DNA of 64,000 nucleotides from Nigrospora sphaerica (taxonomy: Eukaryota > Ascomycota > Sordariomycetes > Amphisphaeriales > Apiosporaceae). The notes beneath the pieces are model-generated. The model was given only the letters and a program-made list of their open reading frames with translations, searched no databases and was not told the DNA's origin. The first letter of the stretch is position 1. Every line of letters begins with the position of its first letter. Position numbers and translations under genes: made by a program. The stretch is taken from the NCBI GenBank assembly GCA_018287875.1, contig JAGVVL010000001.1:9114001-9178000 (forward strand), written 5' to 3'. Of the stretch, positions 12,258-54,740 are shown in pieces.

Positions 12258-12408
12258 GGCTGACGAGATGGCCCGTTGTAATTCAGAGTAGGGATGATGG
12301 CAGTGTTAGGGTGGGATCGCAGTCGGTGGCAGCCGACAAGCCAATGCTAGGAGTCAGCCACTTTGCGGCGCGCCTGTCAGCCAATTGGCTATCGCCAGCG
12401 CGGCTGAC
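12258..12408. promoter_or_regulatory. Four GGCTGAC motifs in the divergent EasF-like/ATP-grasp-1 promoter
   Basis: Core copies at 12258-12264 (+), 12353-12359 (-), 12376-12382 (-) and 12402-12408 (+) lie in the 875-bp gap between two divergent starts (11956 and 12832). They sit about 300-450 bp before the methyltransferase and 425-575 bp before the ATP-grasp gene. Weaker relatives (GTCAGCT, GTCAGCG) lie near 12140-12165. The rest of the gap shows no gene. Inferred operator of the cluster regulon. Confidence 0.6.
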
Positions 12409-12831
12409 ATAAACCAATGTACGCACAGCTGCCGAACCCGGACACCTGACAGTAGTAACGTCGACAGCTTGGAACGTATAGCTGTCGATCTTGATGCGCC
12501 AAGCGCCCTATTCGGGTGGGTAGCCCGCGAGGTTGTGGCGGGCTGGGAGTGAGCCAGACCGGCCAGGATGCCTGTGTGGAGTGATGGATCGTGGAGTCGA
12601 GTCGGACGAGCGACACCCACCCATACTTAGCTGCGATGAAGGCTATTACGCCGTGAACGGCCGTCTTTGGACGTGTAAGATCTGTCGGTTTCTCTGATTT
12701 TGCCCAAGCCCAGGCTCATCCCTTACCCTCGCCATCCAGCCGTATCCTCACCGCGCGAGTTCGTTGCCTACTCCTCCCTTTATTTGGAACCCGAAGTCGC
12801 GCTTGAGCCTGCCGCTGCCCCGTTGGTCATC

Positions 12832-14259
12832 ATGGGCGGTGAATTCCCTCTGATCCGGCTGGACAAGACGCTGTCGGAGCTGTATGCGCTCGACGGCGGC
12901 GACGTGCGGGAGGGCGCGCAGCTGATCGGGCTGCCGTCGCCGCACGGGCAGGTGACGTCGGCGCTGCCGGCGAACCGCAAGTACGTGTTCCACACGCCGA
13001 CGGCACCGAAAATCGCGCCGTCGACGTACGCGCGCATCGCGCTCGGCAGCGGCGCGCAGAACCACGGCTTCATCGCCGGCCCGGCCTGCCCGCTGTACCT
13101 TTTCGACCTCGACCCGCCCGCCTTCGACCAGGCGTCGGGCCGCATCGCCGACCCGCCGCTGCACGTCGTCGACGCCGAGCGCACCTACGCCGCCCTCGTG
13201 CCCGAGCAGCGGCCCCGGCCCGCCTTCGTCAAGAAGGCCGCCGACTTCCGGGCCGGCCCCGGCGAGGTCATCAACCCCTACCCGACCATGGACTTCCTTG
13301 ACGACCACCCCACCATTCTCGACCAGGAGACGCTCTACCAGTTCCAGTCAAAGCGCTGGCTCGCCCTTTCGGGCCTGCCGACGCCGCCGACGCGCGTCGT
13401 CGACGTCGACGCCGGCTTCGGCCCCGCCGACGCGCGCGACGCGGCCAAGGTGCAGGCCGAGGCGGAGCGGCTCGTGGCGGCGGCGGGCGTGCGCGAGCGG
13501 GCGCTGCCCTTCGTCGTCAAGTTCCCGCAGACGTACGCGGGCGCGGGCGTCTTCGTGCTCCGGGACGAGGCGGCGCGAGCGCAGTGCCTCGCCGTGCTCG
13601 AGACGGCCGTGCCGGCCATGCTCGGGCAGGTGACCGAGGCCAACGCGGCGCTGCGGCCGGCGGCGCTGCTCGTGCAGGACTGGGTCGAGGGCGCGCACCG
13701 CAGCTCCTGCTTCTTCGTCTCCAAGCGCGCCGGCCGCGTCGAGACGCTCAGCACGACCGAGCCCTTCCTCGACGCCGCCGGCCACTGGTGCGGCAGCGTG
13801 CTCGACTACGCGCGCCAGGACGAGCTCTCCGCCGAGTTCGCCGCCACCGTCGGCACCGTGGCCGCGCGCCTCCACGCCGACGGCTACTACGGCGTCGTCG
13901 GCGCCGACATGATCGTCGACGCCGCCACGGGCGCCCAGCTAGTCGTCGACCTCAACGTCCGCCTCGTCGGCAGCTGCATGATGGGGCCCCTCAAGGGCCA
14001 CCTCTACGACCAGCGCGCCCTGCGCTACTCGTACATCCTGACGCCCCTTGTCATGCTCGGAAGCCGCGACGATTTCGAGGCCAAGTTCGACGAGGAGCTG
14101 CGCGAGGCCCGTATCGTCGTCGTCGGCTGGGCCCGCGACAAGAATCCCGGCGGCCTCGACTTCACCTACAGCGTCTGCGCCCTCGTCGTGGCCGGCAAGA
14201 CGCAGCCCGAGCTGATGCAGCTGATTGGAAAAATCCGAAAGAACTGTATATCCGAGTAA
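12832..14259 (+). CDS. ATP-grasp domain protein 1 (Aos23/solid-state-culture-protein-like)
   Basis: Single exon, 475 residues from the first in-frame ATG; the frame is open upstream to 12700 but has no earlier ATG. ATP-grasp enzymes activate a carboxylate with ATP and ligate it to an amine or thiol. Visible elements are the nucleotide-binding Lys in LPFVVKFPQTYAGAGVF (K230, with the glycine-rich loop), the hinge LLVQDWVEG, and the metal-binding ending VVDLNVR (about 372-377), which matches the family's acidic/Asn/Arg signature. The N-terminal part (DKTLSELYALDGG...) aligns with the paralogue at 39276-40703, which has exactly the same length. It shares a motif-bearing promoter with the EasF-like methyltransferase. 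Possible role: amide or ester bond formation on a cluster intermediate. Fold is well supported; reaction is inference. Confidence 0.85.
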   Translation: MGGEFPLIRLDKTLSELYALDGGDVREGAQLIGLPSPHGQVTSALPANRKYVFHTPTAPKIAPSTYARIALGSGAQNHGFIAGPACPLYLFDLDPPAFDQASGRIADPPLHVVDAERTYAALVPEQRPRPAFVKKAADFRAGPGEVINPYPTMDFLDDHPTILDQETLYQFQSKRWLALSGLPTPPTRVVDVDAGFGPADARDAAKVQAEAERLVAAAGVRERALPFVVKFPQTYAGAGVFVLRDEAARAQCLAVLETAVPAMLGQVTEANAALRPAALLVQDWVEGAHRSSCFFVSKRAGRVETLSTTEPFLDAAGHWCGSVLDYARQDELSAEFAATVGTVAARLHADGYYGVVGADMIVDAATGAQLVVDLNVRLVGSCMMGPLKGHLYDQRALRYSYILTPLVMLGSRDDFEAKFDEELREARIVVVGWARDKNPGGLDFTYSVCALVVAGKTQPELMQLIGKIRKNCISE

Positions 14260-14382
14260 TGGTCCGGTATGTTCCTCGCTTTGGGGCCGTCGTGCCGTGG
14301 ACGTGGGTCGATGCTGCTCCCGCTGTTGCTCCCGCTTCAGCTCCTGATTCAGCTCCTGCTCCCGTTGTTGCTCCTGCTCCTG

Positions 14383-14385
<3 letters not shown>

Positions 14386-14418
<33 letters not shown>
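14386..14418 (+). repeat. (CTG)11 microsatellite
   Basis: Eleven perfect CTG units, preceded by imperfect CTC/CTG/TTG units from about 14330. It lies 127 bp downstream of the ATP-grasp stop codon, probably in its 3' untranslated region. Confidence 0.85.
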
Positions 14419-14419
<1 letters not shown>

Positions 14420-15233: not shown

Positions 15234-15249
15234 CCCCCCCCCCCCCCCC
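15234..15249 (+). repeat. Poly-C tract
   Basis: About sixteen C in a row in non-coding DNA. Length is likely to vary or be misread. Confidence 0.75.
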
Positions 15250-16678
15250 TGGACCCGCGCGGCGCTTCTCGGTCAGCGAGGATGACCATGCCCCGGAACC
15301 CGGCGATGGAGCCTTGCATGCAGGGTCCCCGCCCGCTCCTCCCAGTTTCCCGGTACGTGAGGATCTCGTGCGCGCTTGATCCATCGTGCTTGGGCGATCG
15401 AGGCCCCGCCGCCGGTGCTTCCCGTTGCAACCATGGAAGCCTAAACGGCGGGTATGCACGTCGGACTGGCTCTCGGATGTCCTACCGAGCCGTCTGATGG
15501 TCGGTACCGAAAATGCCTTGCCGAGTGGAGGTTGACGCACGGCAGCCGTCCCGCTGTGGCACCGGAACAAAGACCCACAGGGATGGATTATGCGACTGCT
15601 GCAGACGCGGGAGTAAGACTTGCATCTGGTTCGGGGACATCTCCTGATCTCGAAGGAAATGCGGATTAGAAAAGAACAGTATACAGGCATGAGTAAAATA
15701 TGATCTGGGAGCGTTGGGCCTTACTAGTCGATGGTGGCATGCGTTATCGGGCGAGATATATTGAAGTACAACGTTGCGTACCTAGGGACCAACCTGGGGG
15801 CCATGGAAGAACAGAAGACAGGATCGGCGGGCGAGTCACAAGCGGCATGAATGGTTCGTGAGACAGACATTGGGTTCGATCGGTTCATTTCTTGTTACAG
15901 TTCGTAGACGTCCAAAATCTTGGCTTTGCCGGCCTGCCTAATAAGGGGGTATCATGAAGAAAACAGGGGACGCCGGAGGGCTTTCGGGAAAACAGTCGGC
16001 CCCCCAACCTCCCTTGGGAAAATATATGCGACGACTTCCTTCTTTTCCGCTCATGCATCCACATCTCGTCGTGTATCCGGCCGGACTCGTTCATTATGCC
16101 CCCCCTTCGCACCCCTTCGTATGCAATGCGAAAAAAAAGGCCCCAGCCTTGGCCGTCCCGTGTAAACCGGCCAAGTACATAAGCGAGCGCGCCGGGTTTC
16201 CGGGCTCTATTGTATACATGGGCGAGGGCGCGTGTGGGGGGGACGCGCTTGTATGTACTTGACGAAGGGGGACTTCGTGGTTATGAGTTGACGTATGTAA
16301 CAAATGAAACAAAAGGGAGGACGGGCATGAAAGATTCAAAGTTTAAACATCGAACTGTGGAGGGGGTGATGCGGATGGGAGGTTGATGGTTGGGTTAATC
16401 AGCCATGACAAAGCCGTAATGTAATGAATTCGGCACTCGGGCCAGGCCAAGCCCGCCACGACCGGGGTGAGGGCGTCGATCGGTAAGTCTGGCGGCGACA
16501 CGGGGTTCCTTGGGGTCGCACCCTTGGACCAAAGAGGAATTGGGGCCGCGATCAGATTGAACTCTCACGGACTAGGAGCCCGGGAGCCGGAGCGCCGGGT
16601 TACACGGTATTCCCGTCGAAGGCGAACGGTGCGGGGTCCCGTGGCAGTCTCTTCTCGAGTACTTAAACCCGCGCCTGC

Positions 16679-17521
16679 TCACGCCTGGTTGCGACGGGCG
16701 TGCAGCAACAGGGCCAGGGCCGACTGCGCAATGCGATCGCAGTACAGGCCCTGGGGCCCGGCCAGCTCGGTGAGCAACGACCAGAGATAGGGCGACTGGA
16801 GGGGCGAGCGAGGTTAGCCGAGCGAACGACGACGACGACGACGATATCTCTGCACGGGGACCAACTTACCTCGGACTGTACGACGGTCTCCATGTGGTCG
16901 GGTAGGGTTAGCAACGGCGAGGCCAGGCCGAGGCCCGTCATCTCGGCCTCGGCGGTGTGCAGCGGGTGGTGGGCGGCTGGGTGGAAGGGGGCGATCTTGT
17001 CCATCTCGCTGGCGCACGTGTGGCGGGCGCAGGTGGCGACGCCGTCGCGGAAGCCGCGGGCCTCCCAAGTGTTCCAGTGGGCGCTGGCGGCGTGCAGGTC
17101 GGCGAGGACGCGGCTGAGACGGCGGCTGCGCGACGCGCGCTGCGAGAGGTCGGGCCGGCTGCCCTTTTCGAACTGGGCCGTGTAGTAGGCCGTCACCATG
17201 CGGTCAAAGTCGGCGAAACCGGCGTTGCGCACCACCTCGAGGATCGTGTTGAAGCGCGCCGTGTCCGTCGCCACCGCCGCCGACGACGTCGACGACAGCG
17301 ACGACGCCGCCTCCGTCGCCGCCTGCCCCACGAGCCCCGCCAGGAACCCGCCGTCACTGCCGACGCACTGCGGCGACGGCGCGAGGCCCGCGTTGCTCGA
17401 GTGCCGTCCCCTACTGCTGCTGAGCGCCGCGTGTGAGCTCCCACCATCGTCGGGGCTGGGCCACGGGTCGACAACGTACCTGGACTTTGGCGATGGGTGG
17501 TAGTGGGAAATGTGCTGCTGC

Positions 17522-17581
<60 letters not shown>

Positions 17582-18492
17582 GGTGGCGGCGGCGGTATTG
17601 ACGGCGGCACGTGAGTCGCCAGGTCCTCGTACGACGACATGGTCTGCAGCATCATCGGGCTCGGATCCATGGGCATGGGCGCGGAACCGGTATCGGCATG
17701 CGGCGGCGGGCTCATGAAGGGCGACATGCCGCCCGTCTCGAGGTTCATGAAGCGGTGGCGCATCTCCTCCATGTGCCGCGTACACGGGCCCGTGAGGCCG
17801 TTGCACGAGCACGCCTGCTGCACGCCGGGGAAGAAGAAGGGCGACGGCTGCGGCGGGGAGCCGAAGGCGTCGCCGCCGTCGCCGCCGCCGCCGGCCATGT
17901 GGCCGGCCATCATGAGATCGAAGTTCCACGGCATGCCATCGTGGGCGGCAACCTGCTTCATGATGCCGTCGTGCGGGTGTATGCCCATCGGATCCAGCTC
18001 GGGCGGCGCTAATATGGGCGAGGGGGATTGGGTCTGGGAGGCCGGCGAAGGCTGCTGGTGCGGCTGCCGGTGCTGCTGTTGTTGTGTGGGTGAATCGTCA
18101 GGCACTGGTGTCCCCAGACGAGCCGAGCGCTGCCGGTCGGCGGCGTCGACCTCGGGCGGTGAGCGAGAGCCCAGTTCCTCTTCCAGGTAGGCGCCTTCTT
18201 TGAGGCGGCGACGGTGGTTGCGCTGAGCTATGCGGTTTTGCAATCTGCGAAAGCGACCAGAGCGGTCAGCGGCGGTCGGACGATGAGACGAAGAGACGAC
18301 GACAACGACGACGACGACAATGGGCGTGGCAGCGAGTCGACGGATTCGTTCCTCTTTCTTTTCTCTTTCGCTTGGTGCTCACCTTCTTCTTTCCATGGCC
18401 CGCGGGCTCTGTGACCGCCCCGACTTTTTACGAGGGCTCAACGGAGCAGCGGTTACCCTTTCGGTGGTATTAGACGACATTCCTCGGGCCAT
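16679..18492 (-). CDS. bZIP-type transcription factor, poly-Q rich
   Basis: Exons on the minus strand: 18492-18383, 18244-16870, 16795-16679, with matching phases; 533 residues from ATG 18492 (18480 or 18666 are alternative starts). The first splice joins MERRR to LQNRIAQRNHRRRLK (residues 38-52), a bZIP basic region with the N..AQ..(H)R pattern. The usual heptad leucines do not follow: only YLEEEL, then disordered Ser/Pro/Gln sequence. A pure poly-Q run lies at about residues 259-281. A Cys-containing central block (ACSCNGLTGPC) and a helical C-terminal region follow. The final exon reads SPYLWSLLTELAG..., ending in HARRNQA. Nuclear regulator by inference. It lies inside the cluster span, but its own upstream DNA has no GGCTGAC motif. 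It is the only DNA-binding protein seen near the cluster and so a candidate regulator. Confidence 0.85.
17513..17580. repeat. CAG/CAA repeat encoding poly-Gln
   Basis: CTG/TTG units on the plus strand, read as about 23 consecutive Gln codons in the minus-strand bZIP gene. Typical of fungal activation or linker regions and likely length-variable. Confidence 0.85.
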
Positions 18493-23764: not shown

Positions 23765-24625
23765 TTAGATCTTAATGCCATTGGCCGCCAGCACGGCCAT
23801 GCCGGTGGTGACGTCGCTGCCCGTGACCATGGGAGGCATGGCGTCGAGGAGTGCGGAGCGGGCGGCGGAGCGGGTGGGGGCGGCGGCGTGGGCGGCGCGG
23901 CTGGCCTGGTCGACGGCAGCGACGAGGCCGACGAGCTTGAGGACGTCGGGGCGCAGGCGCGGCACGACGTGGCCGTCACGGTAGTCCATGGTGCGCGTCG
24001 TCTGCGGGTCGCACATGGTGGCAATGCGGCGGCCGTCCTTGTACCAGAGGTCCTTGGTGCCGACGGCGTGCACGGCGTGGCCAGGGTACTTGCCGGCGGC
24101 GGGGCTGCCGAGAAGACCGGCGAGCAGGCCGACGAGGGCGCCGATGCCGTCCATCTGGGCCGCGTTGCCCGTCGTGCCGGCGCCGATGGAGACGACGAAG
24201 CGCAGGCCCTCCCACGCCGTCTGGCCCGCTAGGCTGAGGCCCTGCATGGCGAGGGCTACGAGGGCGCCCTGGCTGAAGCCGAGCATGGCGACGACGTCAG
24301 CGGGTCGCACGCCCTGCTGCGCCAACTGTGCCTCGAGGTAGCGCGCCACGTCGAGCAGCTCGGCGAGCCGCTGCGCCTGCGACAGCGCCGCCGCCCCCGG
24401 CGCCAGCCACCGGTGGTAGCCCGGCATGTCGGCGAAGAGGGGCAGCACGCCCGGCCCCGGCGCGCTCGGCGCCGGTCCGTCAACGAAGACGAGGTCGTAC
24501 GTCTTGGACAGCTCCTTGGCCAGCGCGTGCGACTGGATCCCCATGATGGCCGCCGAGCTGCCCGACCCGTGCAGCATCACCATAACGGGCTTGCGCTCCC
24601 GCGCCTGCTTGACGTTCCGGAGCAT
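23765..24625 (-). CDS. FSH1-family serine hydrolase (alpha/beta fold, LovG-like)
   Basis: 286 residues in one exon from an ATG after GCGGCC. The opening MVMLHGSGSS is the first strand and oxyanion loop. GFSQGA holds the nucleophile S118, GTKDLWY the acid D192, and YRDGHVVP the histidine H219, all in FSH1 (DUF341) positions. In fungal polyketide clusters such hydrolases, for example LovG, act as stand-alone thioesterases that release or proofread acyl chains from the synthase. That role is a reasonable inference here, since the gene shares a motif-bearing divergent promoter with the SDR and lies in a cluster with a PKS-NRPS and trans-ER. The N-terminus is slightly longer than usual before the first strand, and an upstream coding exon cannot be excluded. 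Confidence 0.88.
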   Translation of the reverse strand: MLRNVKQARERKPVMVMLHGSGSSAAIMGIQSHALAKELSKTYDLVFVDGPAPSAPGPGVLPLFADMPGYHRWLAPGAAALSQAQRLAELLDVARYLEAQLAQQGVRPADVVAMLGFSQGALVALAMQGLSLAGQTAWEGLRFVVSIGAGTTGNAAQMDGIGALVGLLAGLLGSPAAGKYPGHAVHAVGTKDLWYKDGRRIATMCDPQTTRTMDYRDGHVVPRLRPDVLKLVGLVAAVDQASRAAHAAAPTRSAARSALLDAMPPMVTGSDVTTGMAVLAANGIKI

Positions 24626-25277
24626 GGCCGCGGTGGTGCGGACGGGCTGTGCCGACTTAATGTCGTGGAATGCTGCGTCGTGGGCCCCTGATTAAGCTTG
24701 CCAGGTCCTGTCTGAGTCGCGTTGCGAAGTCTAAGCCGTATCGGAGTTTTTTCTTCTCAGAGGAGGGAGGGAGCAGGTGACGCCAAGACTGGGAGGGCAA
24801 GAGTGATAGGAGAATAGGAACGCCAAGCTTGGAACGTAGGCGACGTATACTATATTACGGCAAACGATTCGACGGGCGGGCGCGTAAGCGGATGGAAATG
24901 CCGAGGAAAGTTACGATGGAAAGAATACGGCGGCGTGGGTAGGATGGTTTCACGTTGGAAGATGCTGTTGTCTGCTACGGCCTCGTCTTCTTTACCCTCT
25001 CTCCTTTCCTTGATATAGCCGCCGGTTAAGCGGGACTCTCAAGGGCGGCTCCGGTGGAACCTTTGTGATACAGGTGCTGCAGGGAGCCTCAGAACGCAAA
25101 GGGACACCGTGCCTCGTCAAGTCCATCATCTCGATCCATCACCCGTCGAAGTGTGGTTCGCCGCCCACAATGGCTTAGATCTTCTGTTGACGATTGTCTT
25201 GGTATAGGAGCCGAAGCGTGTCTGCGCCCGTTTTCGGTGTAAGTGGCCCACGATGCGCTGATTGGCCCCACCAAACT

Positions 25278-25306
25278 GGCTGACCTCCTCTGTCTCTATG
25301 TCAGCC
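25278..25306. promoter_or_regulatory. Inverted pair of GGCTGAC motifs in the FSH/SDR divergent promoter
   Basis: CTGGCTGACCT (core 25278-25284, +) faces ATGTCAGCCAG (core 25300-25306, -), with 15 bp between cores. The pair lies in the 1052-bp gap between the starts at 24625 and 25678, about 370-400 bp before the SDR and 650-680 bp before the hydrolase. Nothing else was recognised in the gap. Inferred operator. Confidence 0.6.
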
Positions 25307-25677
25307 AGTTGGCACCCAGTATTTCTGACTCGCGTCTGGTGGAGGTTCTGTCTTGGCTCTATCACTGCCATCGGCCTGATCAAGCACCTCATCGCGGCAG
25401 GAGCATTTAGCACACAGCTTCTGCGGCTTCAAGAGAGCCTACAGGCCTTGGAGGGATACTACAGTGACGCGCATCACCTCCCACACCCACCCCACCCCCC
25501 GGTTCCCACGACAGCCTTGCCACTAGCCACGCCCCCTGCCGTCTTTCTTACAAGCCTCCCCACCGACTGACTCCTTCAACCTTCCGGTTATCCTCTAGCC
25601 CCGAGCAGCTGGTATTCATCAGGGGACGTGACCAGCAGAGTTGTTTAATAACATCGTATTATCCACCGATACCCAGC

Positions 25678-27094
25678 ATGATGGGGCTCCAGACGCCGCC
25701 TCCGCGCAAGACGGTTCTTATCACCGGGTGAGAATCCTCCTAGGCAGTCCCTTCCCCCGCCTTGTTTACCCGGCCCCTGGATGGGCAAGCCAAGGGTCTC
25801 GGTGCCAAGGCGGGACTATTACTGTTGCTCATATTGCTTCCTATTCCAGCTGTACGCCCGGTGGGATAGGCTTCGCCGTGGCCAAGGAGTTTCAAGCCCG
25901 AGGTAGGCAAAACCCCCTCGCGTTCTCCTGCCCTCGTCCGACGTACCAGACCCGCGTCAGGCCGGGTGGTTTCCTGTCCGAACCCAGTTTGGCTGAACCC
26001 CCCGGTCCAGCCCACCCGAGTTGCTACGAGGAAATCCCCCCCTTCCCTCCCCCAGAAACTTGGAGTGTCGGCTGCGATGCAACCTCTTCTGACCCCGCCT
26101 GTGCCACAGGGTACCATGTCTTCGCCACCGCGCGGAATCCCGAGACCCTCGCCGAGCTCGCCCGCGAGGGTCTGACGGCGGTCCCGCTCGATGTAACGAG
26201 CGCCGCCAGCATTGCTGACTGCCGGAAGCGCGTGGACGCCCTGCTGGATCTGCCGCGCTTGGACATCCTTATCAACAATGCGTAGGTTTTCCCCGTCCTT
26301 GCCCCTCTCCCCCCCTCTCCCAGTTCGCCCTCGCCTCGTCCCACTCACTGGGTGGAGAGGCGAGGGCCGGAGCAGAACCGAGCCCAGGAAACGGTGGGGG
26401 GATTCTCGACTGACCGTCGTCGCCGAAACCAAACAGCGGGCGCGGTCTCGTGGTGCCGGCGACCGACCTCGACGTGGCGGACGCGCGGGCCGTCTACGAG
26501 ACCAACGTGTTCGGGGCCATGGCCATGGTGGCGGCGTTTGCGGACCTCGTGGTGGCGGCGCGCGGGCTCGTCGTCAACGTGGCGTCGGCGTCGGCGGTGG
26601 TGCCCTACGTGTTCGGGTCCGTGTACGCGTCGAGCAAGGCCGCCCTCGCCGCCTACAGCCGCACCCTGCGCGCCGAGCTGCGGCCCCTCGGCGTCGGCGT
26701 CGTCGTCGTCATGGCCGGCGCCGTCCGCAGCAACATGGGCAGCGCCGCCGCTCGCCGCGGCGACGCCCCCCTGCCCCCGACCAGCCTCTACGCCCGCGTC
26801 CGCCACCTCTACGAGGCCCGCCGCGGCTTCTCCCAAAAGCCCACCGCCGGCCCCCTGCCCACCGACGCCTTCGCCCGCCGCCTCGTCGACAGCCTCGAGC
26901 GCCCCGAGCTTCCCGCCTTCTGGCGCGACTGGTTCGGCCGCCCCGACTGGTTCTGGTGCGGCGGCATGGCCAGTCTCCTCTACTGGGGCTCGACCCTCGG
27001 CGAGTGGGTCTTGGATCTCGGCGCCTGGCGCATGTTTGGCTTGCGTGAACTGCAGCTCATTGTTGAGAAGGAGAGGCACGCTAAGGAGGAATGA
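25678..27094 (+). CDS. Short-chain dehydrogenase/reductase (AYR1-like classical SDR)
   Basis: Four exons: 25678-25727, 25850-25902, 26110-26281, 26437-27094, with phases that agree; 310 residues. The first splice creates the cofactor motif TGCTPGGIG. Exon 3 gives FATARNPETL (NADPH-type Arg), then LDVTS and the NNAG motif split by the third intron. Exon 4 holds the catalytic tyrosine and lysine in YASSK (Y155, K159), preceded by VNVASASA. A C-terminal extension contains a Trp-rich, hydrophobic stretch (FWRDWFGRPDWFWCGG, then LLYWGS), as in AYR1-type reductases that associate with membranes or lipid droplets. It should reduce a ketone or oxidise an alcohol, probably on the cluster product. Paired divergently with the FSH hydrolase through a motif-bearing promoter. 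Confidence 0.88.
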
Positions 27095-29362: not shown

Positions 29363-31187
29363 ATGCCTCACGAGTTACCGCTAAAGAACCGCCTGTCCGC
29401 CTCGTACTGGCAGCTGGACGATGCGGCAGCAGGACTTCCATCGCAGCGGCCGTCGCCACGCCGCAACCTGTGTCAGGGTTGGCTCTGGGAAGTGTTGGCG
29501 GCTGTCGTCAGCGTGGCGGGCATGGGCGCAGTCGTCGTTATCCTCTGGCGAATGCAGGAGCAACCACTAAGCCACTGGACGTTTCCGATCACCATCAACT
29601 CGACCGTCGCCGCCTTTATTACCGCTGTCAAGTCCTTGGCCCTCCTCGTCGTGGCCTCTTGCCTGGGCCAGACAAAATGGAGGCATTTCGGAGACCGCCC
29701 CTCCGAGCTGCGTGACTTTGAAGTCTTTGACGACGCGAGCCGCGGCCCCTGGGGAGCCATCCGCCTGCTGTGGTGCTTGCGCACCCGCTGGGGCCTCGGC
29801 GTTCTGGGTGCCCTCGTCACCATCGGTGCTGTTAGCGTCGATGCCCTCTCCCAGCAGGTGATCCATCTGGACACGCGGACGGAATTTGTCGACAGCGACC
29901 AGGCCAACTTTTGGCTCACGCATTCATACCGGGGCGGCGCCCGAGGGCGGCCCGGCATCATCTCGCTGTCTAACCCACAACGTTCGTCACCGCCACAGCC
30001 CTGCATTTCCTCGTCGCAAGGCGCGAACTGACTTGCGTATCGCAGCCTCGTCGTTTGATTACAGAATGCAAGGGGCCATCTACCGAGGCATGCACGGCAT
30101 CCCATCCACCACGGCCTTCAACTGCCCTGCGAAGTGTGAATGGAACGCCTCCTACATAACGCTGGGAATCAGGAGTCGCTGCAATGATGTCACGGCTAGC
30201 GCGTTTGCCGGGTCCCAGCTTTCAACCAATATCACCAACACGGACGAGCCCGTGTCGGGCATTGTCCGGCTACCAACACCTGGTGGCCTTGTCGTGAAGT
30301 ACGACGTCTCCTACACCAGCTACCACACCGCCGTGGACGTGGTGGCAGAGCAGATATTTCCAGAATTTACCAGTGGAAAAGACCTGCAACTGACGCCCAA
30401 GGGTGGTTTTGACCCTGATTTTGCCATCATAGGGGTGATGCGGCTCAAAGACAAAGAAAACGAAATCAAAGCTTTCGAATTGAGCGCCGAGCACGCCGAG
30501 GTATTCGAATGCAGGCTCGGCTTCGCCGCTTACGAGTACAGCGGCATACAGGCGGACGGCAACAATCTGACGATCGGCCGGACCACCGTACACGACTTGG
30601 CTCGCGGATCCTACGCGAAAGAGGGCAACCAGAGCGACAGGGGCGATACCATCACCTTCAGCACGCCCGGGCTGCCGAGCTTCAAGGTGGCGGCGCATGA
30701 CTTTGCGGCGCTCGGGCAGTTCCTCAACAGCAGCGCCTTCAGCGGCAGCACGTTCGACGGCGAGTCGGGGCCGGCGGGCAACCAGTTCGGCGTGCCGACG
30801 CAGGGGATGGGGCTGACGCTGCTCGATGCGGGCGTGGCGGCGCCGCTGGCGGCGGCAGCCCAAAGCATGACACACCAGCTGCACGCAGCGGGCGGGCAGC
30901 GAAGGGCGGTGGGCGGCCGCGTCGCAGTCGCCGTGCCCTTCGTGCGCGTGCGCTGGTGGCCCTGGCTCGCGGCGCCCCTCGCCATCGACGCCGCTGCCGT
31001 CGTGCTCCTCATCGCCACCATCTACGCTGCCCGCCGCGAGACCCTCTGGAAGTCTTCTGCCGTCGCCGCCCTCTACCACGCCGTCACCCCCGCCGGTGCC
31101 CCCGACGCCGTCCTGCGCCCAGCCATCCGCCACCTCGAGGACCTCGACCGCTTGGGCAAAGAGGTGAGGATTGTGTACGATAGGTGA
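29363..31187 (+). CDS. DUF3176-family fungal membrane protein
   Basis: Two exons (29363-29981 and 30046-31187; intron 64 nt with donor GTTCGT and acceptor ATCGCAG) give 586 residues. The N-terminal part has three hydrophobic segments: WLWEVLAAVVSVAGMGAVVV, then AAFITAVKSLALLVVA, then GVLGALVTIGAVSV. Between them is the family signature FDDASRGPWGAIRLLW, followed by DALSQQVI. After the splice (SSFDYRMQGAIYRG) comes a Cys-containing extracellular region (FNCPAKCEWN...RSRCNDV). One C-terminal membrane segment (WLAAPLAIDAAAVVLLIATIYA) follows, then a cytosolic tail. Function of the family is unknown. It sits between the SDR and P450 genes but has no GGCTGAC motif upstream, so it may be a bystander. 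The donor is not the commonest type, but phase and family alignment support it. Confidence 0.82.
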
Positions 31188-31629: not shown

Positions 31630-33292
31630 CTACGAGGAAGGAAGGAGTGGAAATTGGAAAAAGCGGAACAGGGGACCGACCTTGTAGCGCAGGACGAGGG
31701 TGGCTAGCATCTTGTAAATCTCCATGAGGGCGATGGGGCGGCCGATGCAGGCGCGGGTGCCGGAGCTGAAGCTCATGTCGCCGCGGTCCATGGCGGCGCG
31801 GCGGTCGCGGAAGGCGGCGTCGGGCTCGCCGGGGCGGGGCAGCCAGCGCTCGGGCGCGAAGGCGTAGGGGCGGGGGCCGAAAGTGCGCTCCTGGACCGAG
31901 GCGACGCTGGGCTTGACGCCGACGACAGTGCCGGGCGGTAGGCGCGTGCCGTCGGGCAGCATGAGGCCGGCCGGCCCGACCTCGCGCGCCAGCGGGTTGA
32001 CGCCAGACGAGTCGCGCAGCCGCACGCCTTCGCGCACGAGGCCCTCGAGGAAGGGCAGCGCCTGCGTCTCGCGCCACGACGCCGGCGCCGGCGTGCCGCC
32101 GCTCCCCTGGCCGACCCCCGCCGCCACCAGCTCGGCGTAGAGCCGCTCCTGTGCCGCGGGCGTCGCCACGAGGTGCTTCAGCACGTTGACCATGGACGTC
32201 GTCGACGTGCCGATGCCGGCGATGACGTTGACCATGCAGTGCATCACCATCTGGTCCTCGGACAGCTGGTCGGCGTGTCGGTCGCGCGCGGCCGCCACAA
32301 AGTGCGCCAGGATGTCGCCCTTGGCGCTTTCCTTGCTGCCGTCGCGAGCCGCCTCACGCAGCCGCGCGCGCACTCGCGACGCCGACAGCTGGTGGAAGAT
32401 GGTCGCCTTCTGCGCCCTGAACGTGCGCACGAAGAAGCTCGCGACATCGTGCAGGATGGGCATGGGCATTGTGAAGGCCACGTACTTGTGTAGCAGCTTG
32501 GCTGCCGATGCATCTCGTGTCAGCGCCCGAGTCTTCTTACGCTTCGAGGTGGGGTTTACTCACTCTGCCAGCTCAGCCCCAGCGCGTCCTTCTTGCTCTC
32601 CAGATAGCCCAGGGGTTCTCCGTAGGTCACGTTTCCCTGCACGTCGTACACATCTAGGGGGGGCGGTACTGGTCAGCTCGCGCAACGACGGGGGACAAGG
32701 GGATCCCCAACGCACAGTAATGGGTCCAGTGACCGATATTGACATCGGCGCCGGCGCCAGCGCCCTCGCTCGCGAGGACGCGGAAGAAGGTCTCGAGCAC
32801 GGCGTCGATACGCGGCTCGAAGTGGATGAGGGTGGTGGTAGCGTAGGCGTTGGCGACGGCGCGGCGCATGGGGGCGTGGGTCCTGGCGTCGCGGACGGAG
32901 AAGAGGTTCTCGGCGTGGCCCTTGCCCATGGGCTGGGCGGCGCGGATGAGGTCGGCCTTGTCGAGGGCGGCGCGCATGCCGTAGATGGCGGGGATAGCGG
33001 CCGGGTCGCACACGCTCACGCGCCGCGGTGCCACCCGCACCACGTCACCGTACCGCTCATGCAAAGCCCGCAGGTAGCACACGTTGGTCCCGAACGTGCG
33101 CTGCGCCGACCACCACGCGTGCAGGTTTGTGTACCGTGCCAGCCACGGCCCCGGCACGTGCGAGAGCCCCGATGTGTGGCTGTACCACACGAGGTACGCG
33201 AGCGTGATCACAAGACCGACCGCCGTGACGCCCATCACCTGCGCCGGCGTCACGGCCCGGCGCACCTCTCCGAAAAGTGCAAGGACAGACAT
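31630..33292 (-). CDS. Cytochrome P450 monooxygenase 1
   Basis: Exons on the minus strand: 33292-32716, 32653-32564, 32501-31630 give 512 residues; an acceptor 12 nt earlier (32513) is also in frame. The N-terminal anchor VMGVTAVGLVITLAYLVWY targets the ER, followed by HVPGPWLARYT. The ExxR motif is EGVR, the PERF-type motif is APERWL, and the haem loop FSSGTRACIG has Cys474. The I-helix reads AGIGTST, where most P450s have an acid before Thr; here it is Gly. The C-terminus is short (after LVLRYK), so a different last exon is possible. This is an isotrichodermin/trichodiene-oxygenase-like fungal P450 by pattern. Two motif copies lie about 510-540 bp upstream. Likely oxidises the cluster product. 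Confidence 0.85.
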
Positions 33293-33801: not shown

Positions 33802-33828
33802 GTCAGCCATGGTCGTAGCACGTCAGCC
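33802..33828. promoter_or_regulatory. Two GGCTGAC motifs upstream of P450-1
   Basis: ATGTCAGCCAT (core 33802-33808) and CGTCAGCCAT (core 33822-33828) are direct repeats spaced 20 bp apart, 510-536 bp before the P450 start. The rest of 33293-34263 shows no gene. Confidence 0.6.
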
Positions 33829-34263
33829 ATTGGACGGATCGTGTAGCTTCCCTGGCACTCTGCCGCCGCAGTTGTCCCTAGGCCGCTTCGATCGCCTCTT
33901 GATACCTGCGTCGCTGTTTCCACTGGTCCCCCACGCTTGATTAAGCCGTTGCGCGGTGACGCAGACGTGTTGTTACGCCAGGGGTGAATCACTCTCTCTT
34001 CCCGCCCATAGCAGGCGTCTTCGCTGAAATGCCGCCTCTTTGCTTTTCTCGAGCCTGTAGGATACGACAAAGACTTCTCTAAGTTGTCACTGGGAACTAT
34101 GTATGGCTTCCGAGCCTCGTGAGCTATGCAGTACCCAAACGCCAGTGTCCAATTCAATCCATAGCTATAAATAGTATCATTACAAGTTGACCCGCTGGAC
34201 TCCCACGACGGCCGTCATTCCCCGGACCCCGGGTTTCCACCATCTTCACCTCGCATCCCTTGC

Positions 34264-35646
34264 CTACGCCGCGGCCGTGACCTCGGCGATGGGCTTGACG
34301 ACGACGTTGCTGGCTTCGACGGCGGGGGGCTCAGCGGCGGCGCCAGCGGGGGGCTTGCGGTCAGCGGTGCGGTAGACGAGCTTCTGGCCGCTGATCTTGC
34401 CGAGGCGGACAAGGCTGACGCCGTCGATGAGGCCCTCGAAGCCGTGCGGCTCGATGCGCGTCGGGTGCGGCTTGATCAGGCCCGCCTCGAAGAGCGGGTG
34501 CACGTGCGGGAAGAAGCGGGCGGCGAAGTCGCGGCACGCCGGCAGCCCGTCGTTGCCGAACGGCTCCGGCCAGCTGATGGGCAGCCCCCGCATCCACGTC
34601 GCCAGGATCCAGTCCGACTCGACCGCCTTGCGCGACGCCGCCGACTCGGGCAGCGGCTCCAGTCCCACGTCTGAAGGGGGTGCTCGCGTCAGCAAGAGAG
34701 TCGTCGAGGGCCCCGAGGAAAGGGGAGAGGGAAGGGGGAAGAGTGACAAGAAAGGGGAAAGAGGGATAGGAAAGGGCAGGCGGGGGGTCTTTTCGCTTAC
34801 ACTTTCCTCCCAACCGACCGAGGGCCTGGTAGCAAATCTTGAGGCTGCTGTCGACGGTGATGCAGTCGAGGGCGTAGTCGAGCGAGTCGTTGGTGAAGGC
34901 GCGGATGTCGGGCCCGCAGGTGGGCGAGTTGTAGTCGAAGCAGACGTCGGCGCCGTACGACTTGACGAGGTCGAAGTTGCGGGGCGAGCAGGTGGTGATG
35001 ACGCGCAGGCCGCAGTGCTTGAGCAGCTGGCAGGCGAGGGTGCCGGTGGCGGTGGCGCCGCCGTAGACGAGCACGTCGAAGCTCGTCTCGGCCGTCGCCG
35101 GCGCCGTCATGAGCTCGATGGGCAGGCCCAGCGAGTGGAAGAGGGCCATGGCCGACGTGGCGATGCGAAGCCCCATGCCGGCGCCCACCTCCATGCTCAT
35201 GTCGTCCGGCATCTTGAGCGCCATGCCGCCGTCCATCGACACGTACTCGGCGAACGCGCCGCTCTGCGGCCGCAGCGGCTCCATGCCGTCCGCCGACCCG
35301 CAGATCCGGTCCCCCAGCTTCAAGCGCCCCGTCGCCGCCACGTCCTTGCCCATGGCCACCAGGATCCCGGCGCAGTCGATCTGTAAATCACGTCAGTCAC
35401 CGCGGGAAGCCGCGCTTTCGCCACTTCACCAGCCAGGTCGGTACTCACTCCGTAACTGGCCCCCTCGGCCACAAACGGCCCCACCATCTTGGTGTCGACG
35501 GGGTTCAGGCCGATGGCCTCGGTTTTGATGATGACGCAGTCGTCGGCCAGTGGTGGCAAGGGGACATCGTCGCGCACGCAGTAGTCGAGCTTCTCGTTGG
35601 CGACGATGGCCCGCTGCGTCTTGGGGAGGTCGAGTGAGACGGCCAT
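34264..35646 (-). CDS. Trans-acting enoyl reductase (LovC/TenC-like MDR)
   Basis: Exons on the minus strand: 35646-35449, 35380-34801, 34670-34264, with phases that agree; 394 residues. This is the zinc-free medium-chain reductase that works in trans on fungal PKS-NRPS and HR-PKS lines whose own ER is absent, reducing enoyl-ACP with NADPH. Landmarks are IGLNPVDTKM near the N-terminus, SGAFAEY, the cofactor motif VYGGATATGTLACQLLK, the downstream TCSPRNFDLVKSYGAD, and the family signature DSLDYALDCIT. After the last splice, LGGKYVGLEP...DWILATWM and a C-terminal GLIDGVSLVRLGKISGQKLVY follow. A short Pro/Ala/Val tail of about 35 residues is extra. Three motif copies lie about 470-575 bp upstream. 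Partner: the ER-less PKS-NRPS at 42427-54947. Confidence 0.93.
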
Positions 35647-36079: not shown

Positions 36080-36214
36080 GGCTGATGGCAAGGATTCACC
36101 CCAAGATCCCTGTGGCTGACAGTCTTCCGTAGGTGGGGGATCAGGGGAGGGGTTCAGGAAGCAATCTGGGGTGGGCTGGGCGATCGACGACAGGGGTTGT
36201 CAGCCCTGTCAGCC
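36080..36214. promoter_or_regulatory. Three GGCTGAC motifs (and one variant) upstream of the trans-ER
   Basis: Perfect cores at 36114-36120 (+), 36199-36205 (-) and 36208-36214 (-), plus GGCTGAT at 36080-36086. The last two overlap into TGTCAGCCCTGTCAGCC, a tandem with 9-bp spacing. They lie 470-570 bp before the ER start. The rest of 35647-36897 shows no gene; 36400-36890 is AT-richer. Confidence 0.6.
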
Positions 36215-36897
36215 AGCCCAAGGTCGCGCGCCCGCACAACGGTGACAAATCTGGATGACAGGAGAGGCGGCACGCGCCGTCGGCTACGCGGCAAGCCTGT
36301 ATCACGTCCATCGTTCTGTTGAAGGCTCTACATGGGCTTGCGCTGCCCGGTGGTGGCTTCAGTGGTTTCCCATGCCTAGGTATGTAAGTTTCCATGGGAG
36401 AGGACTTAGAGCCCTAGCGGATAGCGTCCACTGTGGGGCTCCCGTCTACAGCTGAGAGGACCGCTAAGGGAAAAGGTCATGTAGCTTGTCCTGCATCACA
36501 GCGGGGGAAATACCATCATAGCTATAGACCACTACGGGGAAAACACCGAGTTACATACGCAGCTATCTACTTTCACAAAGTGGTCTTCTGTGAGTACGCT
36601 GCGGTTCAACTGGCCGATGGTACGGGAACAATGATGGGGCGATGCTCTAGAGATACGGGCTTGCTGTACACGTACGGCGCACTTGATAAGCAGGACATCA
36701 GAAGCCAGTCGGGAGATGGGTACGAGTGCTTGCAACCAAAGCACTACAGGAATAACATGGTGTTCTGAACTGGCAAGTGAACGCAAGCGACTAGGGGATA
36801 TGAAGCAGCCAAATTATACGCTCTTTAATGATTCCTATTATCGTGCCGCCACACATAAAAGTCCTATATGCATCTGCGACAAATACACTACCACCTT

Positions 36898-38611
36898 CTA
36901 GTTCTTCTGGGCCATTTTCATGGCCACCTTGACGCCGTTTCGGCTGCGTGTGATGAGCGAGATGTGCTCCTTCCATTCAAACACGGGATCGCGTCTCTCA
37001 ATCGACTCGATCGTCTGCATCATACGGGCAATGATGTACGACGCCTCTGTCAGCGCAAATTGTTGGCCGAGACAGATGCGGGGACCACCGTTGAAGCTAG
37101 AGGAGGGGCACTGGTCAGTACGCATCAAGGTGACCCGGTAACGAATTGGGGAGTACGAAAGAGAGAGAGAACGTACGGGATATAGCCCCAGCCGGGACGC
37201 AGGTCTGGGTTGTTCCAACGGTCCGGGTTGAACTCCTCAGCGTCGGGGCCAAAGGTCTCCTTGAGCCGGTGCAGGGCGAAGATGTGGTAATTGACCGGCT
37301 GGTCCTTGTGCACGAAAACGGGCGACTGGCCATCGGGTCCACCGCCTCGGGGCAGGGTCGTGTCCTTGGTGGCTTGTCGGGAGTTGAAGGGCAGCGGAGG
37401 GTAGAGTCGCAGGCCTGGGAAACTTGTCAGCAAGGGCCGTTCGGAAACCCCAGAGCGCGGGGGCCGAGTCGATGCTTACATTCGTTGATGAGGTTGCGGA
37501 CCTGCTTGAGGTTGCGCAGGCTATCGTAATCCGGCAGACGATCGCCGAAGACCTCGCGGACCTCGGCGTGCACCCGGTTGAAGACGTCGGGGTGGCGCGC
37601 CAACAGGAAGAAGGCATTGCTGAGCAGCGAGGCCGTCGTGTCGCGTCCGGCGGCCAGCACGTTGATAACCTCCCAGCGCAGCTCCACGGGGTCGCGCGTC
37701 TCCTTGACAATCTCCTCGAGGAAGACGTACTTCTTCTTCTCGTCCTTCTCGTCCTCGCCGTGGCTGAGCTGCTTCTCGTCCAACTTGACCAGGTACTCGG
37801 CGATGATCTGGTCCATGGTGGCGTGTACGTCCTCGCAGGCGACGATGAAGGGGTCCTTCTTGCGCTTGAATAACAGGTCGCGGACGGCGGCGAAGGGCTT
37901 GAGAGCGGGCTGGACGCGTAGGCCGTAGTTGTGGATGTGGGTGCCGGCGTAGTCGAAGGAGTCGAGGAAGCGCAGCGAGGCCGAGCCCTCGGGCGCCACA
38001 AGGCAGCGGAACGACTTGCCCAGCAGGACCTCGGTGGCCGAGTCCATAGTCAGGCGGAAGAAGAGGGGCTGAAGGTCGACGTCGACGAGGCCGCTGAAGG
38101 AGTTGACGGGCGGCAGCACCGACAGCAGGTCCTGGAAATGCGACTCGAAGAGGGCGAGGTCGGAAATGTAGACCTTGGTGAAGCTGGGGCGGATGAGGCC
38201 GCGCGACCGCTCCCAGGCCTTACCATCATGCGTGAAGATGCCGTTGCCGACGAGGGGGCAAAAGAAGTGGCGGCGGCGGTCACCGAGGTCGAAGTCCTTG
38301 AAGTCGGCGGCGAGGATAGCCTTGAGGTTCTCGGGCGCGACGGTGAAGATGATGGTGCCGCCGAGCGACGAGCTGGCAAAGGTCGTGCCCAGCGTGTTGT
38401 AGCGGTGCACCCACATCGGCAGCCAGGCCCTGCCTTTCCACGCCTTGGCCGTCGTGCGCAGGTTCTCCCACCGCGAGAGCGCTCGCGGCGAGCGGCAGCC
38501 GTGCCGCGCCGCGAACGCCCGCCGCTGCAGCCAGACGACCAGCGCGTTGGCGACGCGGAGCGCGACGAGCACGGCGAGCCCCCCGAGGGCGAATTGGTAG
38601 AGCGGCAGCAT
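36898..38611 (-). CDS. Cytochrome P450 monooxygenase 2 (CYP52-like)
   Basis: Exons on the minus strand: 38611-37480, 37414-37177, 37096-36898 give 522 residues. It has an N-terminal anchor [20 protein letters not shown] and the CYP52-type N-terminal block ([22 protein letters not shown] in two parts, then DFDLGDRR). The I-helix is AAGRDTT with the usual acid. ExxR falls at the first splice (NECLRLYPP). EEFNPDRW and the haem loop [10 protein letters not shown] (Cys465) follow. CYP52 enzymes are n-alkane and fatty-acid omega-hydroxylases, so the enzyme may hydroxylate the end of a polyketide chain. That is inference from family similarity. Two motif copies lie about 310-335 bp upstream, so it belongs to the putative regulon. 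Confidence 0.92.
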
Positions 38612-38921
38612 CGTGTGTGCGTGTATACTTCTGCGGACCGACCCTGCCTGTCTGTCGGTTTTACGTGAGTATATGCCAGCGGGTTTGACCGGCACGCAGC
38701 TGGAGGGGTCGGGGGAGGGAGGGGCATTCCCGGCGGCCGAGGCCTGGCCATATAAGGAGCCGGTGACTAAGGCATCGGGTCACTTCATCGGAGGAGCAGC
38801 CATCGTGTGGTCCGGCCTGCTGGGTCGGCACCATGCAGACTGCTGGCAAGATCCCCGTTCCTTTCGCTTGGGGCCGCGCCCGACCTGGGACTCTTGGGTT
38901 TGGGCGAACCGGCACATGGAT

Positions 38922-38945
38922 GGCTGACCTGCAGTAGTGGCTGAC
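38922..38945 (+). promoter_or_regulatory. Two GGCTGAC motifs upstream of P450-2
   Basis: ATGGCTGACCT (core 38922-38928) and GTGGCTGACAG (core 38939-38945) are direct repeats 17 bp apart, about 310-335 bp before the P450 start. The gap 38612-39275 is otherwise featureless. Confidence 0.6.
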
Positions 38946-39275: not shown

Positions 39276-40703
39276 CTACCACGAGTTTACACGAAGCGCA
39301 TTCACCCTGCCCGATAGTGCCCTTAGCCCCTCTTGAGTCTCGGCCGCTACGACCACGGCGGCGATGCCGTACACGAATATGCCGCCTGCCGCCTTGCCTT
39401 TGGACCAGGCGGTGATGACGAGCCGGCCCTCCTCTATCTCGTTGGCAAACGTAGTCTCGAACTTTTCCCGCTCGCCCATGACAGGCAGGGGGCAGATGAG
39501 AGTGGCCAGGGGCAGCTTCAGATTCTCCCAGAAGTGCTTCTTCATCAAACCCAGCACGAAACTGCCCGTCTGCCGGACGTTGAGGTCCACGATCAGCTGC
39601 TTGCCTTCGGGCGTGGTCATAATGTCCACCCCCATGGGGCCGTAGAAGCCGTGCCTGTAAACGTAGGCGGCGGCTTTCTCAACCATGTCCTTGTACTTGT
39701 CCTGGGCCGCGTCCTGCTGGCGGTAGTCGATGAAGCCGCCGGCCCAGGAGTCGCGCTCGTCCATGAGCTGCTCGGTGGCGCAGAGGAAGACGGGGCGGCC
39801 GGTCTTGGTGACGAAGAAGGAGACGGCGGGGCAGTCGCTGGCCACGACGTCCTGCAGCAGCAGACTGGCGGGCGTGAGGGCGGCGTTGGCCTCGGTGAGG
39901 GCGCCGAGGATGGCGGGCAGCTGCTCACGCAGGTTGGCAAGGCAGGCGCGCCGCTTCTCTTCGTCGTCGAGCACGAAGACGGCCTGGCTGGCGAGGCCGA
40001 GGGGCAGCTTCACAACAAAGGGCAGATCCCGCGCCGCCACCGGCACCAGCATGCGCTCGACCTCGGCGGCCACGGCGGCGGCGTCGCCCGTTTGGTCCGG
40101 CCGCAGCGTCGTGTCGACGACCTCGGTCGGCGGACTGGGCAGCTCGGCGTTGTCGGCGAGGGCCAGCGTGCGCTTCGACAGCAATCGCCAGTGGGCCTCC
40201 TGGTCGACGAGGGGGCCGTGGCCGTCGAGGAAGTCCATGGGCGTGATGGTGACCTTCTTCTGCGGCCGCGCCGCCACGTCGCTTGCGCGCTCGACGAAAT
40301 GCAGCCGCGGTCGTTGCGCCTCACTCAGTACGGCGTAGGTGCGGCGGGCGTCACGGCGGTGCTCGGGCTCGGCCGTCTCAGCGGCCGAGGCGCCCCAGCT
40401 CATGCTCGCCATGGCCTTCTCCATGGCGGTGCGGTCCATGTCGAACAGGTGAAGATCCATGGGTCCCGCCGCGAAGCCGTAGTACTGCGACACGGCGCCG
40501 AGGGCGAAGCGCGCCGTCGTGTTGGGCCCGAGCTTCATTGTGCGCGGGCCCTGGTACGCGTACTTGACCGACGTTGGCAACGAGCTCGACGGCGACACCT
40601 GCGTGGGAAAGGCGTAGACGAGGGCGACGTCGTCGCTGTTGCCGCCGTCAAGCGCGTACAAGTCGGCGAGCGTCGTGCTCAGTTCGACCGGGGGTGGAGC
40701 CAT
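39276..40703 (-). CDS. ATP-grasp domain protein 2 (paralogue of 12832-14259)
   Basis: Single exon, 475 residues from ATG 40703, exactly as long as ATP-grasp 1. Shared blocks include TLADLYALDGG at the start, RTYAVL.EAQRPR, PMDFLD.H..L.DQE, LPFVVKLP (Lys232), LTEANAAL.PASLLLQD, FYGPMGVDIM, and the metal-binding LIVDLNVRQTGS. The glycine-rich nucleotide loop differs: where the paralogue has TYAGAGVF, this one has GLASQAVF, so ATP binding or the reaction may differ. The gene is divergent from the PKS-NRPS across a 1.7 kb promoter with three motif copies. Position next to the synthase makes it the stronger candidate for a biosynthetic role; the reaction is not known. Confidence 0.86.
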   Translation of the reverse strand: MAPPPVELSTTLADLYALDGGNSDDVALVYAFPTQVSPSSSLPTSVKYAYQGPRTMKLGPNTTARFALGAVSQYYGFAAGPMDLHLFDMDRTAMEKAMASMSWGASAAETAEPEHRRDARRTYAVLSEAQRPRLHFVERASDVAARPQKKVTITPMDFLDGHGPLVDQEAHWRLLSKRTLALADNAELPSPPTEVVDTTLRPDQTGDAAAVAAEVERMLVPVAARDLPFVVKLPLGLASQAVFVLDDEEKRRACLANLREQLPAILGALTEANAALTPASLLLQDVVASDCPAVSFFVTKTGRPVFLCATEQLMDERDSWAGGFIDYRQQDAAQDKYKDMVEKAAAYVYRHGFYGPMGVDIMTTPEGKQLIVDLNVRQTGSFVLGLMKKHFWENLKLPLATLICPLPVMGEREKFETTFANEIEEGRLVITAWSKGKAAGGIFVYGIAAVVVAAETQEGLRALSGRVNALRVNSW

Positions 40704-41348
40704 AGCTGCCGGGTATTTGCTGGGAGGCTCGGACGGGTACACGGGGATTGGGCGGTTGCGCCTCCGGTGATGGACGGGGATGTCTTGGAGAAATGAAAGT
40801 GGATGAGCGAGGAGTACAAGAAGGGCCTATAGCACTGGTAAAAGAAGCAAGACGGTGAACGCGAAAGCAAGCAAGTCTGCCAAGGGGTCACAGAAGGAAA
40901 GGCAGAGACGCGGAAATGGGTGTTGCATGTTGTACATATGGCATTCTCCGCCACCGTCCCGGCATCTCGCGTCTTGGGCGCCCTACGAACCAACGACCAA
41001 CGAAGGGCAAGGCACAACCCCTCGTAAATTGCAGGGCACGCCCGCATGCACGCACGATCCCCTCCGGAGTGCGCGCGCGGACTCAGAGAGCTTGTAAGGG
41101 CTTGGGACATTCCCAGTTGGACCCATGGCCTGGATGGTCTGTCTCGTTATCCATCCCCCATCCGGGCCCTCTCGGCTTCTCCAAGCAAGCGACGCCGCAG
41201 AGCCTTGCAAGGCGCGCGCGTGCTGCCCAGCCTGGGAGCTTGACGACCTGTGTTAGTCAGTAATCCCGTGGAGAGAATAAGCCTTGAGCCGCCGAACTTG
41301 CAGCCCCCCTCCTGGCGAGTCTTGCCGTCGCCAAGACGCAGCAGAATT

Positions 41349-41848
41349 GGCTGACACGTTTCGTCGCCGGTTGCTGGATTGGGACGATTTGGGGGATTTG
41401 GCGGTGCTGATTGGCCGGTCTTGTGCTGGCTGACCTTCTAAATTTCCCCGTTAGGCCTGTCAGTGTCCCAGTGTCAGTCGCCAAGACGCCAAACTCTTGG
41501 GTCCCGTTTTCGACGGTCCCTCCCCCACCAAGCAGGCGGGAAAATCCATGGCTGACACTCCTTTACAGCCCTCATTCCTCATTCCTCCATCTCTATCCCC
41601 TCCACCCCCCCCAGTGAATACACAATAGCGCTTTTTGCCCTGTTGTCCGCCTGCATACCCGCTTCCCTACCCCACTCCAATTCCACCTCAGCGCCGCCCT
41701 GCGTTTGCGTTTGGGCCCCGGCGACCTATCGGCTACTCGGCTTGGATCGTCGACCAATCTGGATGCCCCCCCTGCGATGCGGTCCCGTTGCCGTCGCATG
41801 GCTGATGATTGCCAAGGCTGTGTGGGGGAACGCCGTGAGATGGCTGAT
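41349..41848 (+). promoter_or_regulatory. GGCTGAC motifs in the ATP-grasp-2/PKS-NRPS divergent promoter
   Basis: Perfect cores at 41349-41355, 41428-41434 and 41550-41556, all on the plus strand, and GGCTGAT variants at 41800-41806 and 41842-41848. They lie in the 1723-bp gap between the ATP-grasp-2 start (40703) and the PKS-NRPS start (42427). DNA just before 42427 is pyrimidine-rich, as in many fungal leaders. No gene was recognised in the gap. Confidence 0.6.

Positions 41849-54707: not shown

Positions 54708-54740
<33 letters not shown>

Follow-up and report, generated by a model that had tools for sequence, protein, structure and literature searches.

Which genes of a polyketide synthase–nonribosomal peptide synthetase (PKS-NRPS) cluster in Nigrospora sphaerica are switched together, through which DNA word and by which factor? 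We address these questions here for a 64-kb stretch of the genome (C1:9,114,001-9,178,000, in an assembly of 51.6 Mb), referred to below as the window, in which the seven-base core GGCTGAC recurs upstream of the biosynthetic genes. A sequence-only reading of the window had taken this core for the site of a pathway-specific regulator, and this assignment is supported by the density of the word in these promoters relative to the genome and by the way in which it tracks the biosynthetic genes. The best explanation as a whole, which we regard as reasonably likely, is that TGGCTGAC(A/C) serves a pathway-specific regulon as its activator site and is read by a bZIP-type factor encoded within the cluster itself; binding, activation and co-expression are what we infer. 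That the putative site is functional in this cluster is very probable, and, if it is, the in-cluster bZIP is its likely candidate reader.

The site provides a means, from the DNA alone, of delimiting a cluster for whose set of genes the literature searched offered no match. It suggests which genes act together, one of them outside the window, points to the candidate regulator as the switch and ties the cluster to a paralogous cluster on another contig, C12.

Enrichment and shape of the site

Counting both strands, GGCTGAC occurs 21 times in the window rather than the 18 times first counted; the 16 copies assigned to six promoter gaps do stand, distributed as listed over EasF-like/ATP-grasp-1 (4), FSH/SDR (2), P450-1 (2), the trans-acting enoyl reductase (3), P450-2 (2) and ATP-grasp-2/PKS-NRPS (3). 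These gaps amount to 6,794 bp and, together with that of a further gene outside the window, P450-3, make up the seven gaps referred to below. The other five copies are at 23304, 30811, 34413, 63135 and 63422. The equal-base expectation of about 8 copies per window was too low, since 100 dinucleotide shuffles give a mean of 12.95 (sd 3.32, largest 20) and the genome density (9809 copies in 51.6 Mb) gives 12.2 per 64 kb. Across the whole window, the bare core is enriched only 1.7-fold, whereas within the six gaps the 16 copies stand against about 1.3 expected from genome density or 1.04 from the flanks. When 8-mers are ranked against 200 kb of flanking chromosome, the best-scoring one in the six gaps is TGGCTGAC, which is present in all six with 13 copies (0.49 expected from those flanks). 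The longer word TGGCTGACM, that is TGGCTGAC(A/C), has 11 copies in the gaps against 0.18 expected (genome-wide count 1345), and TGGCTGACA has 8 against 0.085 (genome-wide count 647). Every window copy of these two words falls within the six gaps, the genome density giving 1.67 and 0.80 per 64 kb, respectively. The enrichment of the motif in these promoters is real.

Controls on this ranking were of three kinds. First of all, 1,000 random draws were made of six flank segments with the same lengths as the gaps, with the P450-3 promoter excluded, the word required in at least four of the six segments and a maximum of three copies credited to each segment; the observed score, 30.0, was not matched by any 8-mer, the two highest draws giving 29.2 and 24.0. 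Second, in a looser test of 400 draws, with the word in at least three of six segments and copies unlimited, the observed score was beaten four times; the words responsible were each present in three segments and had 30, 29, 19 and 8 copies. Third, 400 Markov-1 resamplings of the gaps gave a top score of 19.6. Among other words, TGACGTCA, TGACTCA, TGACGTGA and TTACTAA are absent from the six gaps, and TGACACA occurs twice (0.24 expected).

The gaps are not copied promoters, since comparison of gap with gap shows no similarity at E 0.1 and the columns flanking the motif are near random, except for the T before the core and the A or C after it, a flank agreement that had been claimed and that column composition confirms. 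The orientations and spacings of the sites also vary. It is thus extremely unlikely that the copies arose by promoter duplication or as a spreading repeat with no regulatory role, even though ATP-grasp-1 and ATP-grasp-2 are paralogues and a 40-mer that has GGCTGAC at each end recurs elsewhere in the genome. This 40-mer, GGCTGACCTATATATGCGTACACCCTTGATCAAGGCTGAC, is dispersed on C5, C6, C7, C8 and C11 in 12 listed copies, one with a changed base; several are paired about 7.6 kb apart, like the ends of a long terminal repeat-type element.

The sites are mostly paired. The EasF-like/ATP-grasp-1 gap has a tandem pair on the minus strand, formed by TGGCTGAC at 12353..12360, 479 bp from the ATG of ATP-grasp-1 and about 397 bp from that of the EasF-like gene (the latter read by eye from the frames), and TGGCTGACA at 12376..12383, together with the weak form AAGGCTGACG of the core at 12258..12264 and CGGCTGACA at 12402..12408, both on the plus strand. 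In the FSH/SDR gap, TGGCTGACC at 25277..25284 (plus) converges with TGGCTGACA at 25300..25307 (minus). The P450-1 promoter contains TGGCTGACA at 33802..33809, 510 bp from the ATG, and TGGCTGACG at 33822..33829, both minus, while the enoyl-reductase promoter contains TGGCTGACA at 36113..36120 (plus) and, 9 bp apart on the minus strand, GGGCTGACA at 36199..36205 and TGGCTGACA at 36208..36215. The remaining sites are all on the plus strand: TGGCTGACC at 38921..38928, 311 bp from the ATG, and TGGCTGACA at 38938..38945 in the P450-2 promoter; TGGCTGACA at 41348..41355, TGGCTGACC at 41427..41434 and TGGCTGACA at 41549..41556 in the ATP-grasp-2/PKS-NRPS gap.

With a close pair defined as two TGGCTGAC with 0–30 bp between them, the 51.6 Mb hold 17 such places (12 tandem, 2 convergent and 3 divergent), against 5 tandem and no convergent or divergent pairs for the reversed control. 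Five of the 17 lie inside C1:9,099,258-9,152,945, a stretch of 54 kb that makes up a thousandth of the genome. When the definition is relaxed to the GGCTGAC core, 5 of 80 tandem pairs fall in that stretch, and at least 12 of the rest represent the dispersed 40-mer described above. Tandem or convergent pairs of TGGCTGAC occur at nine loci away from the C1 cluster; in the 3-kb pieces taken there, which were checked for likely coding frames only, without Pfam, no cluster was recognised.

Extent of the proposed regulon and the paralogous cluster

The nine genes initially proposed as the regulon begin on the left with the EasF-like (PF10017) methyltransferase gene (10274..11956, minus) and ATP-grasp-1 (12832..14256, plus), followed by the FSH1-type serine hydrolase (23768..24625, minus) and the SDR (25678..27091, plus; ATG read by eye). 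P450-1 (31633..33292, minus) has its Pfam match in 31633-32559 only; the reductase that follows (34364..35646, minus) carries ADH_zinc_N and is presumably the enoyl reductase acting in trans, and then comes P450-2 (36901..38611, minus). ATP-grasp-2 (39279..40703, minus) has no Pfam match of its own and is 43% identical to ATP-grasp-1, and the PKS-NRPS (42427..54944, plus) has the domains KS AT DH MT KR ACP C A T R. The models of the EasF-like, SDR, P450-1, reductase and P450-2 genes are approximate. In the literature searched, no cluster was recognised that combines PKS-NRPS, ATP-grasp and EasF-like genes.

The site does track the biosynthetic genes, as the nine-gene proposal holds, but the number is probably larger. 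To the left of the window, 14.7 kb from its edge, the P450-3 gene is preceded by three sites, 471-689 bp from its ATG, two of which form a close pair, and a relative of this gene lies in the paralogous cluster. The left edge is thus placed outside the window, so that the regulon probably exceeds nine genes and the edge previously set at 10.3 kb is probably not that of the regulon, which we take to include P450-3 and perhaps also the divergent DUF7702 gene, 14-16 kb left of the window. Farther out, the right 100 kb contain three single TGGCTGAC and the left 100 kb contain eight in addition to the three before P450-3. The stretch that separates P450-3 from the other cluster genes includes, at −11.6 to −2.5 kb of the window, a reducing PKS gene (KS AT DH MT) together with a gene for a methyltransferase; these two may represent a second cluster that was inserted or is nested here. 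A DUF3176 gene (29279-31184, plus) lies inside the cluster.

The paralogous cluster spans C12:4323785-4357000, of which 13 kb was read. Its relative of P450-3 is 51% identical over 470 aa and adjoins a relative of the DUF7702 gene (39% over 100 aa); a P450-2 relative, an ABC transporter gene and an ATP-grasp relative (46% identical) are also present. For the PKS-NRPS relative, a search with 507 residues gave 57% identity; a single TGA interrupts its read-through and may reflect either an intron or a broken gene. Genome searches place it on this contig within 30 kb, as they do a relative of the in-cluster bZIP gene (47% over 90 residues, in the C-terminal part), the only other genome match to that gene at E up to 10. 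As for the sites, a TGGCTGACA pair is found some 470-500 bp before the ATP-grasp gene and one TGGCTGACG before P450-2, the motif being present in two of the three readable gaps. Of the three divergent pair places of the genome, the one examined, C12:4,352,889, is located here, 16 kb from the bZIP relative. The locus was found via its pair, which is thus not independent evidence of enrichment; the chance that one of the 12 remaining pair places falls in the 34-kb paralogous cluster is about 1%, by arithmetic done after the fact. With cluster, regulator and site duplicated in nature, this case is well suited to following how regulators and sites drift after duplication, a question also raised by AfXanC and PeXanC. 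At C13:4195231-4196655 there is another ATP-grasp relative, whose read-through is interrupted by one TAA; it is perhaps the relic of a third cluster.

The probable reader of the site

The candidate reader is a bZIP-type gene on the minus strand (16666..18492), located between ATP-grasp-1 and the FSH gene and thus inside the cluster; it went unnamed in the sequence-only reading. A frame of 571 residues is preceded by a short exon (about 18384-18492; this exon and the intron in the basic region are predicted, and the coordinate 16666 marks where the open frame ends rather than an established stop), and the joined product reads ERRRLQNRIAQRNHRRRLKE, a bZIP-type basic region with N-x7-R. All five weak PDB matches of the spliced N-terminus (E 0.64-2.9) are Jun/AP-1, and its sole Pfam match is bZIP_1 (E 0.03, below cut-off). 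In the same gene model, there is no recognisable leucine zipper, the heptad positions being L, R, A and A, with leucine only at the first of the four. The 1.2 kb upstream of the gene contain no GCTGAC.

According to the explanation that we prefer, the product of this gene would bind TGGCTGAC(A/C) by recognising a TGAC half-site with a GGC extension. Its sites would act at spacings of 9-26 bp in six of the seven promoter gaps (P450-3 included) and at distances of 0.3-0.85 kb upstream of the start codons, or about 1 kb for the PKS-NRPS. The factor would activate the biosynthetic genes jointly, while its own gene would be controlled from elsewhere, and the C12 cluster would use the same site with a sister regulator, whose basic region we infer. 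A bolder version, in which the zipperless factor reads paired half-sites, perhaps as cooperating monomers, and one code serves two duplicated clusters of the genome, one of them split by a foreign PKS gene, so that the sister regulators could cross-activate both pathways, is speculative and rather unlikely.

The kind of system is known; this instance and its exact site were not found described in the literature searched. A whole-word search for TGGCTGAC, GTCAGCCA, TGTCAGCC and GGCTGACA gave only unrelated matches, by title concerning Mycobacterium leprae and data encryption. The statement that no known fungal factor has such a site was nevertheless too strong, since AGTCAGCA of AfXanC (PMC8406171), ACGGCTGAC of A7370 (PMC13113314) and GTGG(A/C)TGA of Crz1/CrzA (PMC5472186) are published. 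The TGAC half-site is common to AfXanC, Apf2, A7370 and the site described here.

AfXanC, of the Aspergillus fumigatus xanthocillin cluster, is closest in features. In both systems, the factor, here the candidate, is an in-cluster bZIP-type protein without typical zipper leucines. In A. fumigatus, an 8-bp site with a GTCAGC half (AGTCAGCA, or TGCTGACT on the other strand) occupies the promoters regulated by AfXanC and is missing from that of xanC (PMC8406171). Here, each of the six gaps has a site with the GTCAGC half and the region upstream of the candidate regulator has none, the control of these genes by that regulator being presumed. The two differ in the word itself, AGTCAGCA there versus TGGCTGAC(A/C) here, in the mostly paired arrangement here and in product class. 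The regulon would thus resemble that of AfXanC in its working, a likeness of features; as exact AGTCAGCA has no copy in the six gaps and one in the P450-3 gap, the factor would be better described as working like XanC than as XanC itself. That one copy lies between the two tandem P450-3 sites, at about −14.74 to −14.71 kb of the window.

The Apf2/ToxE (bANK) factors share with the candidate a basic region without a zipper, and share with this system a cluster-wide site that contains TGAC and is missing from the promoter of APF2 (PMC4109984). They differ in their site, the Api-box TGACGTGA, which the gaps lack, and in their ankyrin repeats, none of which appeared when the 571-aa frame and three frames downstream of it were scanned (longer frames only). 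The candidate was rejected as a bANK factor on these grounds, and as a DUF3425 factor because no DUF3425 turned up in Pfam scans of the whole frame or, with an E limit of 1, of its C-terminal part.

Another possibility is that the site is real but is read by a bZIP encoded elsewhere, which would place the cluster under a stress regulator. Such a reader could be a DUF3425 factor like A7370 of Curvularia lunata, which binds ACGGCTGAC, a word that contains the whole GGCTGAC core (PMC13113314). The genome has 33 bZIP_1 and 5 DUF3425 matches, none of the latter in the window, and TGGCTGACA occurs 647 times genome-wide against 266 for its reversed control, so that a wider regulator may use the word. 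Yet ACGGCTGAC itself has no copy in the six gaps (0.07 expected), A7370, whose gene lies outside its cluster, is reported to work by way of cuaF, the regulator gene of that cluster, and here the in-cluster bZIP gene has no upstream site while the biosynthetic promoters do. We thus consider a reader from outside the cluster unlikely.

The site could also be a calcineurin element, with the C2H2 factor Crz1/CrzA as its reader and the cluster under calcium control; this is suggested by the published consensus TCA(G/T)CCAC, or GTGG(A/C)TGA (PMC5472186). GTGGCTGA overlaps our site and occurs four times in the seven gaps (0.47 expected), and GTGGATGA once (0.26 expected). The flanking bases, on the other hand, fit Crz1 less well: the 5' G of its consensus precedes 4 of the 19 copies of TGGCTGA in the seven gaps and 11 of 33 in the flanks and so is not favoured, whereas a 3' C, which lies outside that consensus, is favoured, following 16 of the 19 gap copies versus 11 of 33 flank copies (P 5e-4). 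The test of the 3' C is partly circular because the site was chosen for that C. Without the 3' C, TGGCTGA occurs three times in the gaps (0.94 expected) and GTGGCTGA not at all (0.39 expected). Crz1 was therefore set aside as first-choice reader, and calcium control of this kind is very unlikely.

Several further observations weigh against an in-cluster bZIP acting on a regulon of this extent. First of all, the gene model depends on a predicted intron, the Pfam and PDB matches of its product are below cut-offs or non-significant, and the 33 bZIP_1 matches returned for the genome do not include the gene; other potential readers are found among these and the 5 DUF3425 matches. In Pfam, the whole frame gives a single match, a sub-threshold TFIIA one at residues 255-305, beside poly-Q. 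Second, the C12 match covers only the C-terminal part (query residues 33-122), with the basic region outside it. Third, the sites do not follow every gene or form pairs everywhere: the upstream gap shared by the reducing PKS and methyltransferase genes, the region upstream of the DUF3176 gene and the DUF7702/P450-3 gap on C12 have none, the rest of the C12 cluster beyond the 13 kb read has no tandem pair, and the three sites of the ATP-grasp-2/PKS-NRPS gap, 79 and 122 bp apart, form no close pair. Finally, the genome-wide excess of TGGCTGACA over its control counts here as well.

Genes to the right of the cluster

On the minus strand to the right of the cluster, a gene with a PNP_UDP_1 phosphorylase domain is found at 57997-59016 and a weak F-box-like match at 60224-61918. 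The window itself ends 110 kb short of the contig end.

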